DNA of 15,233 nt from Candidatus Omnitrophota bacterium (lineage in GTDB: Bacteria; Omnitrophota; Gorgyraeia; Gygaellales; Profunditerraquicolaceae): NCBI GenBank assembly GCA_023247875.1, contig JAHFFQ010000016.1, positions 1 to 15,233 of the forward strand, in the 5' to 3' direction. Position numbers and translations under genes: made by a program. Shown here piece after piece: positions 4,230 to 9,721 of the stretch. A model generated the notes under the pieces. The model was not told the origin of the DNA. It ran no database searches and worked only from the letters and a program-made list of their open reading frames with translations. Each line of letters begins with the position of its first letter. Within the stretch, counting starts at the first letter, position 1.

Positions 4230-4646
4230 TTATAGCTTATAAACTTTATCGTGCTGCCTGACCCGGGAACTGACCAGTAACCCTATTTCATCCCCTTTTT
4301 TGGCGCTGGAAATATCAACCCGGTCGATCTGCATGGAGGTGATAAGCTGGGTCAGGTCAGTGGTGTGCCCCTTTATCTTTACTGTGTCCCCCATTGCCAG
4401 AGGACCCTTTAATTTTATTACCGCAGCCTGCACATGAGGGAAATAATGGGTGATTGAGCCGACAAGATTGCCCTCTTTTTTTACGGCCTTTTTAGCCGCA
4501 GCTCGCTTTTTCCCTGCGGGTTTCTTTTTTAGAAGAGGTTTCCTTCTGGCGGCTTTTTTAGCCGCTTTCCTGACCGGTTTCTTTACCGCTTTCTTTGACC
4601 TTTTCTTTGCCGCTTTCCTGACTTTCCTTTTTTTCTTTAAAGCCAT
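4230..4646 (-). CDS. Lys/Ala-rich histone-H1-like tail fused to an EF-Tu domain 2-like beta-barrel
   Basis: A 138-residue protein in two parts. Residues 1-58 are almost only Lys, Ala, Arg and Pro (KKAVKKPVRKAAKKAARRKP and similar), like bacterial histone-H1-type tails that bind nucleic acid. Residues 59-138 match the small 'translation elongation factor-like' family that resembles EF-Tu domain 2: GSITHYFPHVQAAVIKL, GDTVKIKGHTTDL, SMQIDRV, KKGDEIGL, VRQHDKVYKL. There is no GTPase domain. The ribosome-binding site is strong (AAGGAGGTG). It follows the DUF4870-like gene by 37 nt, the last member of the four-gene unit that includes ParA-CBM48. Stand-alone barrels of this type have no established function; with the tail it could be an RNA- or nucleoid-binding protein. 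Confidence 0.82.
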   Translation of the reverse strand: MALKKKRKVRKAAKKRSKKAVKKPVRKAAKKAARRKPLLKKKPAGKKRAAAKKAVKKEGNLVGSITHYFPHVQAAVIKLKGPLAMGDTVKIKGHTTDLTQLITSMQIDRVDISSAKKGDEIGLLVSSRVRQHDKVYKL

Positions 4647-4683: not shown

Positions 4684-5010
4684 TTAAAGGATGACCTTTT
4701 CGGATATTTCCGTTACAACCGGGATACGGCAGTATAGGCCCAGGCCAGCCTGGATGATCCCCCAGATTGAGACCAGCAGGAACAAGGCATACCCGAAAAT
4801 ACCGATTAACCAGCCCAATAAAGGTATGATCGAAAGTATGAATGCCGCCACCTCCATGACAAAAAGAACCAAGCCCTGCTTGGCATGGTAAAGGGCGAAT
4901 TTGTTCCCCTTTTTTAATACCAGGGTTATTATGCAAAGAAAAGAAACATAGGAGATTATTGCAAAAAACTTTCCTTCGCGCCTTTCCTGTTCATCGGGCA
5001 AGTTTGTCAT
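4684..5010 (-). CDS. Small membrane protein, DUF4870/Tic20-like
   Basis: A 108-residue integral membrane protein with about three hydrophobic segments (residues 16-34, 47-66, 68-92). KGNKFALYHAKQGLVLF between the first two resembles the conserved charged loop (xxFxxxHxKQAL) of DUF4870/Tic20-like proteins, and the tail LYCRIPVVTEI matches their C-terminal YRYPLxxxI. The family's function in bacteria is unknown. The start is supported by AAGGAAG upstream. It follows the ParA-CBM48 gene by 17 nt, so the two are almost certainly co-transcribed. Confidence 0.8.
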   Translation of the reverse strand: MTNLPDEQERREGKFFAIISYVSFLCIITLVLKKGNKFALYHAKQGLVLFVMEVAAFILSIIPLLGWLIGIFGYALFLLVSIWGIIQAGLGLYCRIPVVTEISEKVIL

Positions 5011-5027: not shown

Positions 5028-6122
5028 TTATTTGTTTATTTCCAGTAAAGAATCCCGGGAGCCGTATGGATTTAACCGGTTTAAGGGGTTAACAGGGTCC
5101 TCAACCCAGTTTCCGTCAACTACAAAGCGGTACCGGTAAGATCCCTTGTCCAGTTTCAAATTTTTTGTCCAGCAGCCGTTTGTCTGTTCCATTCGGCTAT
5201 TCTCATCCAGCTTCCAGTTGTTGAATTCTCCTGCCAGGTATACTTCCTTCGCGCCGGGAGCCTTGATCATAAGAGTGACCGTGCCTAATTTTGGCAGGGT
5301 CTCTTTAAGGATCTCCTTCATGCGTTTTTCCATGGTTTTTTCCGGCAAGATAACCGGGGCCGGTGAGCCCTCCTGGGTAATGATCTCCCGTGAGAGCGAG
5401 AAATAATCCTTTGCCCCGCGGCAGTATTTATCAAAGGTGAGGATATGCAAACCCGCGTTCTGCGCCTCTTTTAATTTTACATTCACGTGGATGATATTTG
5501 AAAACATCTTTTCCTTGTAGTCGGATTTGATCTTCTCAAGCATTTTAAAGGAGTGCTGCAGCCTGGAATCGAAGTTGGATACCAGCACTCGGAAATCCAC
5601 ATCATGATTCAGCCTTTCTTTTACCAGTTTGATAATGCTGGTCAGCTGAGCTAACCCCTCCAGGGAAAACCTGCTGGCTTCAACGGGGATGATTATCTCA
5701 CTGGCTGCGCGGATGGCATTAATTGTCAGGATCCCCAGGTTAGGCGGGCAATCGATCAAAATGTAGTCATAGTTGCCTTTAAATTCCCTTAAGGTGTCCC
5801 AGAGCCGGGATTCGCGGCCGATCTCGCCGCTTAACTCCTGCTCCAGTGTGCTCAAGACTATTGATGAAGGGGCTATATCCAGGTTCTCTCCCAGGTTTTG
5901 GATGATATCTTCAAGCCGGGATTTCTTATGGGCCATCTTGGAGAGGACGTTATAAATACTCGTATCTGATTTGATGTTCAGGCCGCTTGAGGCGTGCGCT
6001 TGCGGGTCAAGGTCAATTAACAGGACCCTGCGGCCGTTGGCGGCAAGGGAAGCGGCCAGGTTTATGGATGTGGTTGTTTTTCCGCAACCGCCCTTTTGAT
6101 TCGAAATTGAGATAATGCGCAT
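5028..6122 (-). CDS. ParA-family ATPase fused to a C-terminal CBM48 glycogen-binding domain
   Basis: A 364-residue fusion. Residues 1-250 are a ParA/Soj-type ATPase: deviant Walker A KGGCGKTTT with signature K10 and P-loop K15, Walker A' D39 (LLIDLDPQAHAS) and Walker B D124 (YILIDCPPNLG). Residues 278-364 form an AMPK-beta/isoamylase-type CBM48: VYLAGEFNNWKLDE with W303, then YRYRFVVDGNWVEDPVNP with W339. These correspond to the two glycogen-contacting tryptophans of the AMPK beta subunit, so starch/glycogen binding is plausible. No ParB is nearby; instead GH57 and a membrane-anchored beta-sandwich protein lie upstream. The ribosome-binding site is AGGAGGG, 7 nt before the ATG, and the spacer to the upstream gene is 16 nt. 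By analogy with ParA-like proteins that position carboxysomes or chemoreceptor clusters, it may place or segregate glycogen granules; that role is an inference. Confidence 0.9.
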   Translation of the reverse strand: MRIISISNQKGGCGKTTTSINLAASLAANGRRVLLIDLDPQAHASSGLNIKSDTSIYNVLSKMAHKKSRLEDIIQNLGENLDIAPSSIVLSTLEQELSGEIGRESRLWDTLREFKGNYDYILIDCPPNLGILTINAIRAASEIIIPVEASRFSLEGLAQLTSIIKLVKERLNHDVDFRVLVSNFDSRLQHSFKMLEKIKSDYKEKMFSNIIHVNVKLKEAQNAGLHILTFDKYCRGAKDYFSLSREIITQEGSPAPVILPEKTMEKRMKEILKETLPKLGTVTLMIKAPGAKEVYLAGEFNNWKLDENSRMEQTNGCWTKNLKLDKGSYRYRFVVDGNWVEDPVNPLNRLNPYGSRDSLLEINK

Positions 6123-6138: not shown

Positions 6139-6711
6139 TTATTTTATAACTCTTATATTATCAAGGTAAACTATCCCCGATTTTTGCCGGGCGTTCCATT
6201 CTTCGATGGTAAAGGCCAGGCTCTTCATCTGCCGCCAGTCATTGATTTTGGCGAAACGACTGAGCTCTATTTTTTGATCAGCCCATTTGCCGGGGATGTT
6301 CTTTACGTAAACCTCTGACCTCTCATCAAAGCGGTTGATGAACTCTACCTTTAATGAGATGCTGTCTTTGGGGTTGGTTTTTCTTACCGCAAAGGCCAAA
6401 GCTTTGTATTTGGATAAATTCAGTTGTTTTAAGTTCAGGGAAAAAGTTTCCTTTTTGGCAGGGTCAAAATTAAAGTTTATTTTTGCGGCGTCCTGGTATA
6501 AAAATAAGGCGATCTGGGAGTTCCGGGAGCGGCTGTTCAGGTTATAATAAGTAAGCCCGCTTGCTAAGCTAAAGATTACCAGGGCCGCTGCCAGGATCAG
6601 ATTACGTACCGGCTTAGGATAGGATTTTAACTTGCGTTTTTTCTTTGATGATTTTGAAGAGGCATCCAGGTAAATGCTGGCCAGATGCTCATAGATCTCT
6701 TTCTTATCCAT
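6139..6711 (-). CDS. Membrane-anchored protein with extracytoplasmic CBM-like beta-sandwich
   Basis: A 190-residue single-pass protein. Residues 1-36 are a hydrophilic, strongly basic cytoplasmic segment (MDKKEIYEHLASIYLDASSK followed by a KKKRKLK cluster). Residues 37-56 are one membrane helix without a signal-peptidase site. Residues 65-190 are a beta-rich domain ending MKSLAFTIEEWN and GIVYLDNIRVIK, a pattern like CBM11/galactose-binding-type jelly rolls; this likeness is by eye. It is the first gene of the unit with ParA-CBM48. ParA partners often stimulate the ATPase through a short basic N-terminal peptide, so the basic cytoplasmic tail is a candidate contact site. No Shine-Dalgarno sequence is present; the promoter places transcription start only about 4 nt before the ATG. 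Confidence 0.75.
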   Translation of the reverse strand: MDKKEIYEHLASIYLDASSKSSKKKRKLKSYPKPVRNLILAAALVIFSLASGLTYYNLNSRSRNSQIALFLYQDAAKINFNFDPAKKETFSLNLKQLNLSKYKALAFAVRKTNPKDSISLKVEFINRFDERSEVYVKNIPGKWADQKIELSRFAKINDWRQMKSLAFTIEEWNARQKSGIVYLDNIRVIK

Positions 6712-6721
6712 TTGAAGATAC

Positions 6722-6750
6722 TTTATAACATAAAAGCTGAGCTATGTCAA
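6722..6750 (-). promoter_or_regulatory. Consensus sigma70 promoter of the ParA-CBM48 unit, overlapping the GH57 stop codon
   Basis: On the - strand, TTGACA (6745-6750) and TATAAA (6722-6727) are separated by exactly 17 bp. The TGA stop of the GH57 gene (6747-6749) lies within the -35 box. The expected transcription start, about 6715, leaves only some 4 nt before the ATG at 6711, so this mRNA is close to leaderless. Confidence 0.78.
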
Positions 6751-8291
6751 GGAGTTAAGGGGTCTTTCAGATAATCAGGGGCTTTATGATCTATTAGCTG
6801 GTAGAAATTATTTAAATGCATCCGGAAGAGCCGGTCAAATGAGCCGTCCGGATCTTCACCGTACCACCAGAACCAGTCGCTTCCTTCCAGGATATACATT
6901 TGTTTTAAGGCCAGTTCACTCGGGTCTTTTATTTTTGCAAGGGCCTTCCTGGCGAGCGTAAGCCACTCCCAGGCTTTTACTTTATAGGGGTTGCCTATCC
7001 ATTTGCCGAATTCCCCGTAAATCCAGGAGCCGGCGCTTAAGCGCTTGATCTCAAGCTTCGCCGGATTTTTTTGAAGGTATTCGCTTACCGTCGTAGTCCT
7101 GACAAAATCAGTTTCGCTTATGCGATTATAAAATAATTCCAGGAAGTCATGGCCGTCATTCCTGAAATACTCCCAGGCATTTTCTCCGTCCATGGCAATG
7201 GTGACCAGGATATCTTTTCCCTTGAATGCCTTGTTGATATTTTCAAGGTGGGCCATGAAATCATTTACCGCATCCACCTCTTTCATCTTATGGTAAGTAA
7301 AGCCGATCAGGTCGGAAAGGTTACGGTCGCGGAAAACTATGTTAAGTGCCCCTCCCTTCCTTTTCAATAGATGGGGCTGGTAAAGCAGTTTTGTGTCGCG
7401 TTTTTTTATTTTCAGGGATTTGAACAGGATAGCTTCATCGGCCACGATCCATTCTATGCCGGATTCAATGATGAACGGCAGGATATGCTCACTTACTGCT
7501 TCCTCCGAAGGCCACATGCCAAGAGGTGCTGTTTCAAACCTTTGTTTATAAAATTCAACCGCGCTTTTTATATGCTCCCCGGCGTCCTGGGGAAAACTGA
7601 ATTCCTCCTTGGGCAGGAGCGTTTTTTTGTTCGCCTCTTTGGCGACATTTGTGCTGCACAATAAAGGCAGGATAGGATGATAATACGGGGTAACGCTTAT
7701 TTCAATCCGGTTATTCTCTTTGAAAAGACGGTAGGCCGGGATTATCCCTTTTAATATCTCCAGCTGTTTATCCAGGGCCACCTGTTTATCCTCTTCACTG
7801 AAGAACCTCTCCTTAAGCATTATTTTCTTAAGCTCCGGGATATTCCGGCGGAATGACGGGTCGATCCAGGCGAGATTAAAGCATAGCTGCAGGTCGAGGT
7901 AATCCTGGGTGGAAAATTCCAAGCCGCGGTGTTTGCGGGTGTAAAGCTCATAATAACGCGGGAATGTCGCTATGACCCGCTCTTTGTTTATGGAAAAAAA
8001 GTTGCTCAGGATGAATTCTTTATCGGATCTAGTCAGTTCAATCGCGGGTTTTTTGGACAGCTCAAGATAGGTATCTTTAACCCGGCCCATATTATAATCT
8101 TCTACCTGTTCAAATAATGACGGGACAACGTTAAAGGTTTGTTTGATTTTGGGGAATTTTTCCAGGAGCTGCACCATATCCAGGTAATCCTTTATCCCGT
8201 GCAGCCTTACCCAGGGCAAGTCGCTTGCCTGGGTAAGCAGGTTCTTATAATACGGCTGGTGCATATGGAAGATAAAGGCGAGATTTAGCAT
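6747..8291 (-). CDS. Glycoside hydrolase family 57 enzyme (alpha-glucan-active)
   Basis: A 514-residue cytoplasmic enzyme (no signal peptide). GH57 motifs are present in order: FIFHMHQPYY (H9, H11), EISVTPYYHPILPLL (197-211), GMWPSEEAVSEHIL with the probable nucleophile E263, FRDRNLSDLIGF with the catalytic Asp (D322 or D327), and ITIAMDGENAWEYF-type TIAMDGENAWEYF (364-376). The helical C-terminal part ends with EGSDWFWWYGEDPDG. These motifs are closest to the amylase/amylopullulanase/4-alpha-glucanotransferase branch of GH57, so it should act on alpha-1,4 (and perhaps alpha-1,6) linkages of glycogen or maltodextrin; exact specificity cannot be read from motifs. No ribosome-binding site precedes the ATG, and only 18 nt separate it from the porin terminator. 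It lies directly upstream of the ParA-CBM48 unit. Confidence 0.93.
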   Translation of the reverse strand: MLNLAFIFHMHQPYYKNLLTQASDLPWVRLHGIKDYLDMVQLLEKFPKIKQTFNVVPSLFEQVEDYNMGRVKDTYLELSKKPAIELTRSDKEFILSNFFSINKERVIATFPRYYELYTRKHRGLEFSTQDYLDLQLCFNLAWIDPSFRRNIPELKKIMLKERFFSEEDKQVALDKQLEILKGIIPAYRLFKENNRIEISVTPYYHPILPLLCSTNVAKEANKKTLLPKEEFSFPQDAGEHIKSAVEFYKQRFETAPLGMWPSEEAVSEHILPFIIESGIEWIVADEAILFKSLKIKKRDTKLLYQPHLLKRKGGALNIVFRDRNLSDLIGFTYHKMKEVDAVNDFMAHLENINKAFKGKDILVTIAMDGENAWEYFRNDGHDFLELFYNRISETDFVRTTTVSEYLQKNPAKLEIKRLSAGSWIYGEFGKWIGNPYKVKAWEWLTLARKALAKIKDPSELALKQMYILEGSDWFWWYGEDPDGSFDRLFRMHLNNFYQLIDHKAPDYLKDPLTP

Positions 8292-8368: not shown

Positions 8369-9721
8369 TTAGAATACAACCTTCATGGAGCCGATCAACT
8401 GAGTTGCGGTCTGTTTTTCAACATCCCATACTTTTCCAGGCACGAATATGCCCGCAGTTAATCCAAACTGCACATCTTCGGTGTAATCATAGGTAGCAGT
8501 GACATCGATTTCATCACCAAGATGTCTCTTGCCTTCCCTAAGGTTAGCACCACTGATGTACCGGTTAGTTCCATCATAGAAATGCTGGCTATTATATGTC
8601 CAAGTGCCTCTTTTGACGCTGGCCATATCAAAATAACCATAAAGCATTGAGAGTGTAACATCCTCAACCGGTTTGCAGCTGGCTCTCAGGTTGTATACGC
8701 TTAAGTCGCTGAAAGCTAAAAGCGCGTAAGCGATATTACCGAGTTTTTGATCATAGAACATGGAATCCCAGCCTTTTTCAGTGCTTGCATCGCCGCTTTT
8801 ATTTCCAGACAGGAGGGTATAGCTGGCTCCGATCTTAGGAGTCATCTTAACCTTGGCAAAAGTATAATCTGCCATTGCCTGAATGGCATATGCGTTATGC
8901 TGGTTGTAATTAATTGAGGTGTCGGTGGCACCGTCATTCTTACCGAATTGAAATGCGCCTTCCAAGGACATGGTAAGGTTATCAATCGGGGTGGCTGAAA
9001 CTAAGGCACCCACGGTGTTAACTTTATCAGCTTTTCCCTTGCTGGCAGATGTGCCGTCGTTATTGTCGCTCTTCAAGAAATAATAAGCTGACAGGTTAAC
9101 CTTTTTGTTCAATGCGTAGGTAGCATTAATACCGCCTAAATTAGTATCATTCTTTCTTGTAGTATCTTGCGAGTTGACTTTAGCATAAACTAAATCCACA
9201 ACCAGAGGGTCATAATCGAGGGTTGCGCGGATCGCGTCAAATGCTTTTCTTTCAGTTAGATCAGTAGGTATGTTTATTTTACCAGAAGGTACCTGCGCCC
9301 TACCAATGATCAGGCTGTTGCCAAAACTCATTTCCTGACGTCCAATGGTCAAGGTTAAAGGAGAATACAGAAATTCCTTTAAGGTAACATAGGCAAGGTC
9401 AAGATTAATGTTATCGGATCCGCTGGAATTGGTGTCATTCTGGCCATTCCAGACTCTTTCATTGATCAGTCTCACGGTCGCCATAACGTTGTCCGTAAGG
9501 TCCGCATCGATGCGCACCCTGGTTTGGGTCATGAAAAGAGATTGATCGATGTTCTTCTTGTCCCCTGCTGCTCCCGCGGCCAGATTGAAATGGTTCCTTG
9601 CTACTCCACTGGCAATGATGTCACCACTTACCTTTACGTTCTGCACTTCGGCGTAGGCAGGGCTGAATGCCAACCCAGCTACCAAAGCAAGCGCTAATAC
9701 TGCTATTAAGCGTTTACTCAT
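8369..9721 (-). CDS. Outer-membrane beta-barrel porin (alginate-export-like)
   Basis: A 450-residue exported protein. The signal peptide MSKRLIAVLALALVAGLAFS is followed by an AYA cleavage site (after residue 24). The mature protein has alternating polar/aromatic strands typical of a barrel (MTQTRVRIDADLTDNVMATV, YVTLKEFLYSPLTLTIGRQE, DAIRATLDYDPLVVDLVYAK) and ends in KVVF, with the terminal Phe needed for outer-membrane assembly. RINER/TIGRQE-like segments resemble the alginate_exp porin group; substrate is unknown. The ribosome-binding site is AAGGAGGAG. Its strong promoter, long structured leader and efficient terminator indicate a highly expressed single-gene unit, probably a major surface porin. 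Confidence 0.88.
   Translation of the reverse strand: MSKRLIAVLALALVAGLAFSPAYAEVQNVKVSGDIIASGVARNHFNLAAGAAGDKKNIDQSLFMTQTRVRIDADLTDNVMATVRLINERVWNGQNDTNSSGSDNINLDLAYVTLKEFLYSPLTLTIGRQEMSFGNSLIIGRAQVPSGKINIPTDLTERKAFDAIRATLDYDPLVVDLVYAKVNSQDTTRKNDTNLGGINATYALNKKVNLSAYYFLKSDNNDGTSASKGKADKVNTVGALVSATPIDNLTMSLEGAFQFGKNDGATDTSINYNQHNAYAIQAMADYTFAKVKMTPKIGASYTLLSGNKSGDASTEKGWDSMFYDQKLGNIAYALLAFSDLSVYNLRASCKPVEDVTLSMLYGYFDMASVKRGTWTYNSQHFYDGTNRYISGANLREGKRHLGDEIDVTATYDYTEDVQFGLTAGIFVPGKVWDVEKQTATQLIGSMKVVF

Follow-up and report, generated by a model that had tools for sequence, protein, structure and literature searches.

The ParA-CBM48 gene and its surroundings

The window (the whole stretch of 15,233 nucleotides analyzed here) carries on its minus strand, at 5028..6122, an ATG-initiated ORF for a 364-residue protein in which a ParA/MinD-type ATPase is joined to a CBM48 carbohydrate-binding module. 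By translation, alignment and Pfam matching the protein falls into three parts: an ATPase domain (residues 1-250; 5373..6122, minus strand) with the deviant Walker A sequence KGGCGKT and residues D39, D124, R187, K216 and K218; a poorly conserved linker (residues 251-283; 5274..5372, minus strand); and a CBM48 or AMPK-beta-type glycogen-binding module (residues 290-362; 5037..5255, minus strand). The mean majority fraction in the alignment of fusions is 0.28 for the linker, 0.63 for the ATPase and 0.56 for the binding module. A preliminary description of this DNA had read the ORF as such a fusion, and the Pfam matches confirm it: AAA_31 over residues 1-176 (E 1.7e-57), AMPK1_CBM (PF16561) over residues 290-362 (49.8 bits, cut-off 26.8) and CBM_48 (PF02922; 26.4 bits, cut-off 22.4). 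The best solved relatives of residues 2-250 are ParA chains (8ray_B, 4.9e-57; Thermus Soj, 1wcv, 1.1e-38), and that of the C-terminal module is the AMPK-beta1 glycogen-binding domain (1z0n, 5e-11).

The fusion is real and old. An origin by misassembly or by a frameshift join is practically out of the question: full-length copies recur in well over a hundred genomes, both domains are present in all 120 of the best database clusters listed for the window's protein, and nothing was found in favor of an artifact. The window's reading frame has no internal stop codon; at least one relative (in genome G163) has a TAG within the frame.

The gene belongs to a compact run on the minus strand consisting of a GH57 enzyme (6747..8291, 514 aa; PF03065, E 1.4e-62), a membrane protein (6139..6711), ParA-CBM48, a small protein with three transmembrane segments (4684..5010; DUF4870-like below the cut-off, E 0.002) and a lysine-rich protein with a small C-terminal domain (4230..4646). 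Since neighboring genes are separated by only 16-37 nt, a single transcript is likely. Beyond GH57, also on the minus strand, is an alginate-export-type outer-membrane protein (8369-9721, E 4.2e-30). Neighbor frequencies are given out of 75 loci, the simple gene finder having called no ParA in 6 of the 81 first collected, and contig ends shorten some of these 75 neighborhoods. The three-segment protein is at +1 in 27/75 loci, the lysine-rich protein at +1 to +3 in 40/75 and the outer-membrane protein at -2 to -5 in 29/75; the lysine-rich protein, which resembles a histone tail, is possibly linked to the nucleoid. GH57, described earlier as lying next door to the fusion, is in fact one gene further away, with the membrane-protein gene between, and its nearness is no general feature: it is found near the fusion in 21 of the 75 loci, in close relatives only. 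The intervening gene had been overlooked, and its association with the fusion is wider than that of GH57.

Conserved positions and spread of the fusion

Alignment of 59 of the 81 first loci (6 uncalled loci were excluded, as were 16 near-duplicates, fragments or long-start calls) shows K10, K15, D39, D124, R187, W303 and W339 to be invariant in 59/59; the catalytic lysines and aspartates and the two tryptophans are as first reported. The hallmarks of the ParA/MinD family are all present: a KGGxGKT deviant Walker A with its signature lysine, and the Walker A' and Walker B aspartates. Basic residues of the DNA-contact type are also kept, with K or R at position 216 in 45/59 and at position 218 in 57/59; R187 and K216 correspond to the DNA-binding residues R189 and R218 of Soj, and an alignment to the Soj of this genome bears the correspondence out. 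In the binding module, W303 and W339 line up with the AMPK-beta1 tryptophans of 1z0n, and N or D occupies, in 58/59, the position aligned with AMPK N150, taken here as a comparison point for glucan contact.

One of the patterns used in the wide contig scan was the peptide NQKGGCGK, so the P-loop cysteine was selected for in the first loci. A further 37 loci (the 39 fusion regions from the window's phylum minus L128 and L132, which were uncalled) were not chosen by the P-loop peptide. In these, C13 is kept in 35/37 (2 not readable), H43 in 35/37 (one N, one not readable) and C125 in 35/37 (2 not readable). The three residues all lie near the ATP site, C13 in the P-loop, H43 after the DPQ sequence and C125 after the Walker B aspartate. 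Their retention in loci unselected for the cysteine identifies C13-H43-C125 as the signature of the branch. Of the same 37 loci, 36 retain both tryptophans (33 by pattern, 3 by eye), the exception being L148 (genome G012), a divergent fusion that has lost the second. Taken with the AMPK alignment, this suggests that the binding module is probably functional in glucan binding.

The fusion is conserved in many lineages. In the window's phylum a profile of the 59 aligned fusions finds it in about 149 of 193 sampled genomes, counting as a fusion any best match with an E at or below about 1e-95; this tally includes two genomes without a listed row (G084, G100), one whose CBM was not read (G107), G012 with its lost tryptophan and a copy split over two contigs (G067), and a few rows report stops. 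Most fusion genomes have at least two matches in a single-query search, the second being as a rule, among the matches listed, a shorter ParA of about 260-330 aa. A Myxococcales query likewise gave both domains in all 120 of the best clusters listed. In the phylum of G206, the genome of L103 (titled Myxococcales), the fusion is present in 20/112 genomes, and the fusions (E 2.1e-119 or better) are cleanly set apart from the remaining ParA proteins (5.3e-83 or weaker). The best 80 of 563 relatives include contigs titled Desulfobacterales, Desulfobacteraceae, Syntrophaceae, Myxococcota, Rokubacteria, Eisenbacteria, Sedimentisphaerales, Phycisphaerae and Auribacter. A contig titled Planctomycetales (L049) has a fusion 65% identical to that of the window, and shares the window's membrane partner and GH57 neighbors; its title may be wrong.

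Could this be simply the ParA of chromosome or plasmid partition, with an incidental CBM tail? The closest PDB chains are Soj-type, and many of the alternative partners discussed below begin with a ParB-type LGxGL sequence. The genome, however, has a separate soj-parB pair on contig C166, where its sole PF02195 match, a ParB with the N-terminus MERRALGKGLGALIP, lies beside a 268-aa Soj; the fusion is therefore not the chromosomal ParA, and that identity was rejected. The remark that no ParB is in view was correct for the window, and the fusion locus has no adjacent ParB with a DNA-binding domain of the kind that defines ParABS. None of 10 scanned partner and neighbor proteins gave a ParB match, and the C13/H43/C125 signature is specific to the fusion branch. 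A partition role of the ordinary kind is accordingly very improbable.

Partner genes

The gene at 6139..6711 (minus strand), which ends 16 nt before the ParA start, encodes a single-pass membrane protein of 190 aa, in which a basic N-terminal tail is followed by one hydrophobic segment and then by the outer domain at the C-terminus. The tail (6604..6711, minus strand; cytosolic by the positive-inside rule) contains EIYEHLAxxYL, conserved across the family in an alignment of 43 of 45 cluster members, followed by a lysine-rich stretch; by a crude hydropathy division, tails are net positive in 43/43, with a median of +5. The partner thereby has the short, positively charged N-terminal peptide expected of an ATPase activator. 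The outer domain (6142..6489, minus strand) resembles CBM_11/CIA30 at the level of the family: with E values up to 1 allowed, CBM_11 matches 9 of the 43 members (best 8.4e-5), CIA30 matches 4/43 and other folds match a few. The window's own copy has no Pfam family match, and no solved structure was found for the membrane-protein profile (best E 0.53).

This protein is the -1 gene in 44/75 loci and stands at -2 in one more. Across the window's phylum its family is detected at 1e-5 in 136/193 genomes; strong matches (E 7.7e-32 or better) occur in 70/193, and the fusion is present in all 70. The partner is directly upstream of the fusion and on the same strand in 69 of these, with 14-452 nt between match ends, and in the remaining one it is on a different contig. 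Only two of the top 72 fusion genomes (G151, G124) are without the family, and a Fisher test of the family against these 72 fusions gives p of about 5e-51, uncorrected for kinship. The weaker family matches listed cover the outer domain only (profile positions from about 63) and belong to other proteins. In other genomes of the phylum this outer domain recurs without the tail, often several times per genome, in proteins mostly of about 200-230 aa (for example G007:C90:36080-36436). The initial idea that a built-in CBM replaces the separate adaptor is thus not borne out, since a dedicated partner gene adjoins the fusion in many loci.

Other loci differ in their partners. In 7/75 a longer single-pass protein (cluster 26) is at -1, and 5 of the 37 further loci have a similar tail there. 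Elsewhere it is the +1 gene that stands out, starting with a ParB-like motif, LGRGLxDISHLFLS. The pattern LGRGLxDISxxFLS opens the +1 gene in 10/81 loci, all among the 24 distant ones, with stray matches elsewhere in L065 and L110; inspection by eye adds variants in 8 more of the 24 and saw no LGRGL-type motif in 6. Among the further loci the motif is at +1 in 20/37 (13 by pattern, 7 by eye, a pattern hit in L147 having been set aside by eye as false), and in 12/37 neither kind of partner is next door. No locus was found with both kinds beside one fusion. The remainder of the +1 protein differs from case to case, that of L105 being MinD-like (CbiA, 7.1e-8).

According to passages of PMC10241942, the N-termini of such partners bind the ATPase and the rest of the protein binds cargo; the ParB N-terminal motif is characterized, in part of PMC12462528, by hydrophobic residues and one central R or K. 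Both partner kinds fit the published description of partner N-termini, although in the downstream kind the sequence preceding the motif is only mildly basic (median +2, net 0 in 3 of 20). The membrane tail and the LGxGL motif were also considered as a single motif, a proposal that was dropped: a PSSM of the ParB-like motif gave scattered ranks on the membrane tail (median shuffle p 0.35-0.39), no better than chance. Since similarity to the ParB motif is not significant, the tail is put forward as a candidate ATPase-activating peptide on its position, charge and conservation.

Two minor patterns were seen among the remaining neighborhoods. PurQ-like genes lie upstream of the fusion, with neither partner adjacent, in L115, L116, L119, L121, L142, L144, L147 and L137; the partner of these fusions, if any, would be elsewhere. 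In distant lineages a +1 or +2 protein has, by eye, what looks like a degenerate PD-(D/E)XK domain (L105 11940-12737; L094 11143-11796; L098 2440-3282; L100 12165-12809), with no Pfam match.

Candidate ligand, cargo and mechanism

Is glycogen the cargo? The glycogen synthase GlgA is found in 180/193 genomes of the window's phylum and, being nearly universal there, separates little. The fusion is nonetheless rarer without it (3/13 genomes, against 146/180 with GlgA; p 2.6e-5), and a count by family majority gives 34 families with both, 1 with the fusion only, 12 with GlgA only and 5 with neither (p 0.011). The genomes lacking GlgA, at 0.7-1.6 Mb, are small and fall into a few families, and 34 genomes have GlgA and no fusion. 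Of the 24 fusion genomes reached through loci, 23 of them not titled Omnitrophota, 5 gave no match to a GlgA-type synthase, although these are drafts that may be incomplete; three Rokubacteria among the 24 had trivial partial matches (E 3.5e-6 to 5e-8), and as a control the search found a match in 12 of 14 known genomes. GlgE offers another route to alpha-glucan. The branching enzyme GlgB (TIGR01515) exceeds its cut-off in only 3 of the 24. Phosphorylase (PF00343) occurs in 144/193 genomes, with many partial matches, and the few distances between phosphorylase and fusion on the same contig are no better than a rough chance estimate. Glycogen synthesis genes are reported for Omnitrophota MAGs in passages of PMC8542988.

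The proposal of a glycogen-store system has indirect support from the distribution of GlgA in the window's phylum and is weakened by the lack of a GlgA match in 5 of the 24 genomes. The conserved CBM residues, GH57 in close relatives, and a GalT-type gene (L086) and, by eye, GlgC-like genes (L082, L091) close to some other fusions also speak for it. On balance an alpha-glucan is a likely ligand of the fusion and glycogen granules a possible cargo. A membrane partner would suit a cargo at the envelope as well as a granule in the cytosol.

The explanation tentatively favored is a spatial system of the ParA/MinD type, in which an alpha-glucan-binding ATPase would tether a store to the nucleoid and a dedicated partner would trigger its release. 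From the anatomy of the proteins, the following steps can be proposed. As ATP-bound dimers, ParA-CBM48 would attach to the nucleoid by the conserved DNA-contact surface of its ParA part, and its C-terminal CBM48 would bind glycogen (or maltodextrin), so that the tethered store would be shared out with the nucleoid. The partner would then set off ATP hydrolysis, and with it release. In this genome the partner would be the membrane protein, whose basic N-terminal tail is predicted to lie in the cytosol, and release would accordingly take place at the envelope, this partner being membrane-bound; in other lineages it would be the downstream protein with the ParB-like N-terminal motif. It is thus a prediction that the fusion hydrolyzes ATP and binds both DNA and glucan, that the tail activates it and that glycogen is the cargo. 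A more pointed version, in which the whole serves to partition storage polysaccharide, is possible but somewhat doubtful: CBM48 would grip glycogen and the ParA surface the nucleoid, release would be brought about by activators that can replace one another, among them a transmembrane protein whose outer domain is of the carbohydrate-binding kind, and the glycogen would be placed and divided between the daughter cells. As for the original interpretation, a non-chromosomal ParA-type ATPase with a probable glucan-binding module stands; the lone built-in adaptor is not supported, and the GH57 link is confined to close relatives.

Two other readings of the same anatomy change the part played by the CBM. 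It might act as a glucan sensor on the model of AMPK-beta: CBM48 would report glycogen status and the ParA part would relay it by binding the membrane partner or letting it go, so that the cargo would be a membrane complex engaged in envelope polysaccharide work. The membrane-bound partner and the carbohydrate-binding-type outer domain of its family would suit this, as would AMPK-beta as the best match of the CBM and the occurrence nearby of GH57 or, elsewhere, of a GalT-type gene (L086) or of genes that by eye look like GlgC (L082, L091); yet the fusion retains the residues of ParA catalysis and DNA contact, and the ParB-like motifs of partners in other lineages speak for a classical ParA cycle, which makes a sensor unlikely. 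Alternatively, CBM48 might have no sugar ligand and serve a structural or protein-binding purpose, in a system that positions a membrane or cytosolic protein complex as ParA/MinD systems ordinarily do. Fusions in genomes without a GlgA match (the 5 of 24 above, and 3 of the 149 in the window's phylum) and the loss of the second tryptophan in L148 would be explained in this way. An idle sugar site would leave unaccounted for the two tryptophans, invariant in 59/59 and present together in 36 of the 37 other loci, and the N or D in 58/59 at the AMPK N150 position; this explanation, too, is an improbable one.

Known tasks of ParA/MinD ATPases are the placement of DNA, carboxysomes, chemoreceptors, flagella and the division site. 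The fusion shares with Soj/ParA of the chromosomal ParABS systems the ATPase family, the deviant Walker A and the DNA-contact arginine and lysine, as well as alternative partners that often start with the LGxGL motif; it differs in its C-terminal CBM48, in C13/H43/C125, in the lack of a ParB at the locus and in coexisting with soj-parB. MinD/MinE and FlhG are of the same ATPase family, and the downstream partner in L105 is itself MinD-like, but the fusion ends in a CBM. McdA/McdB (carboxysomes), PomX/Y/Z (division site), and PpfA/TlpT and ParC (chemoreceptors) likewise combine a ParA/MinD ATPase with a dedicated partner. In those systems the partner sets cargo specificity, whereas in the fusion a carbohydrate-binding module is on the ATPase, and one of its partner kinds is transmembrane. 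A basic N-terminus is described for partners of these types in parts of PMC7993993 and PMC10241942.

No description of a ParA-CBM48 system was found in the open PMC literature, in keeping with the earlier statement that no characterized example was known; the passages drawn on from PMC10241942 and PMC9178275 mention neither glycogen nor carbohydrate, those from PMC10066038 do not mention glycogen, and ParA and CBM48 were not found in those from PMC11046441.

The fusion represents a widespread form of ParA/MinD positioning system, in which the ATPase bears a carbohydrate-binding module and the partners are interchangeable. Given the fusion and its frequent partner gene, the little-known bacteria that have them may move or tether stored sugar much as ParA moves DNA or protein bodies. 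If so, this would be, to our knowledge, the first positioning system to take a polysaccharide as cargo and to have the module that binds it on the ATPase itself. A conserved ParA branch that bears a glycogen-binding module and occurs across mostly uncultured bacteria makes the question of how carbon stores are placed or segregated directly testable, and the swap between two partner kinds tells what the ATPase needs.

The AMPK beta glycogen-binding domain (PF16561; 1z0n/1z0m) is the closest solved structure to the C-terminus of the fusion, with both tryptophans kept, the difference being one of setting: a ParA ATPase in the fusion, a kinase scaffold in AMPK. The window's genome also encodes a second, short CBM48 protein, a 107-aa frame (L001 1501-1755; G000:C20) that matches PF16561 with 58.3 bits.
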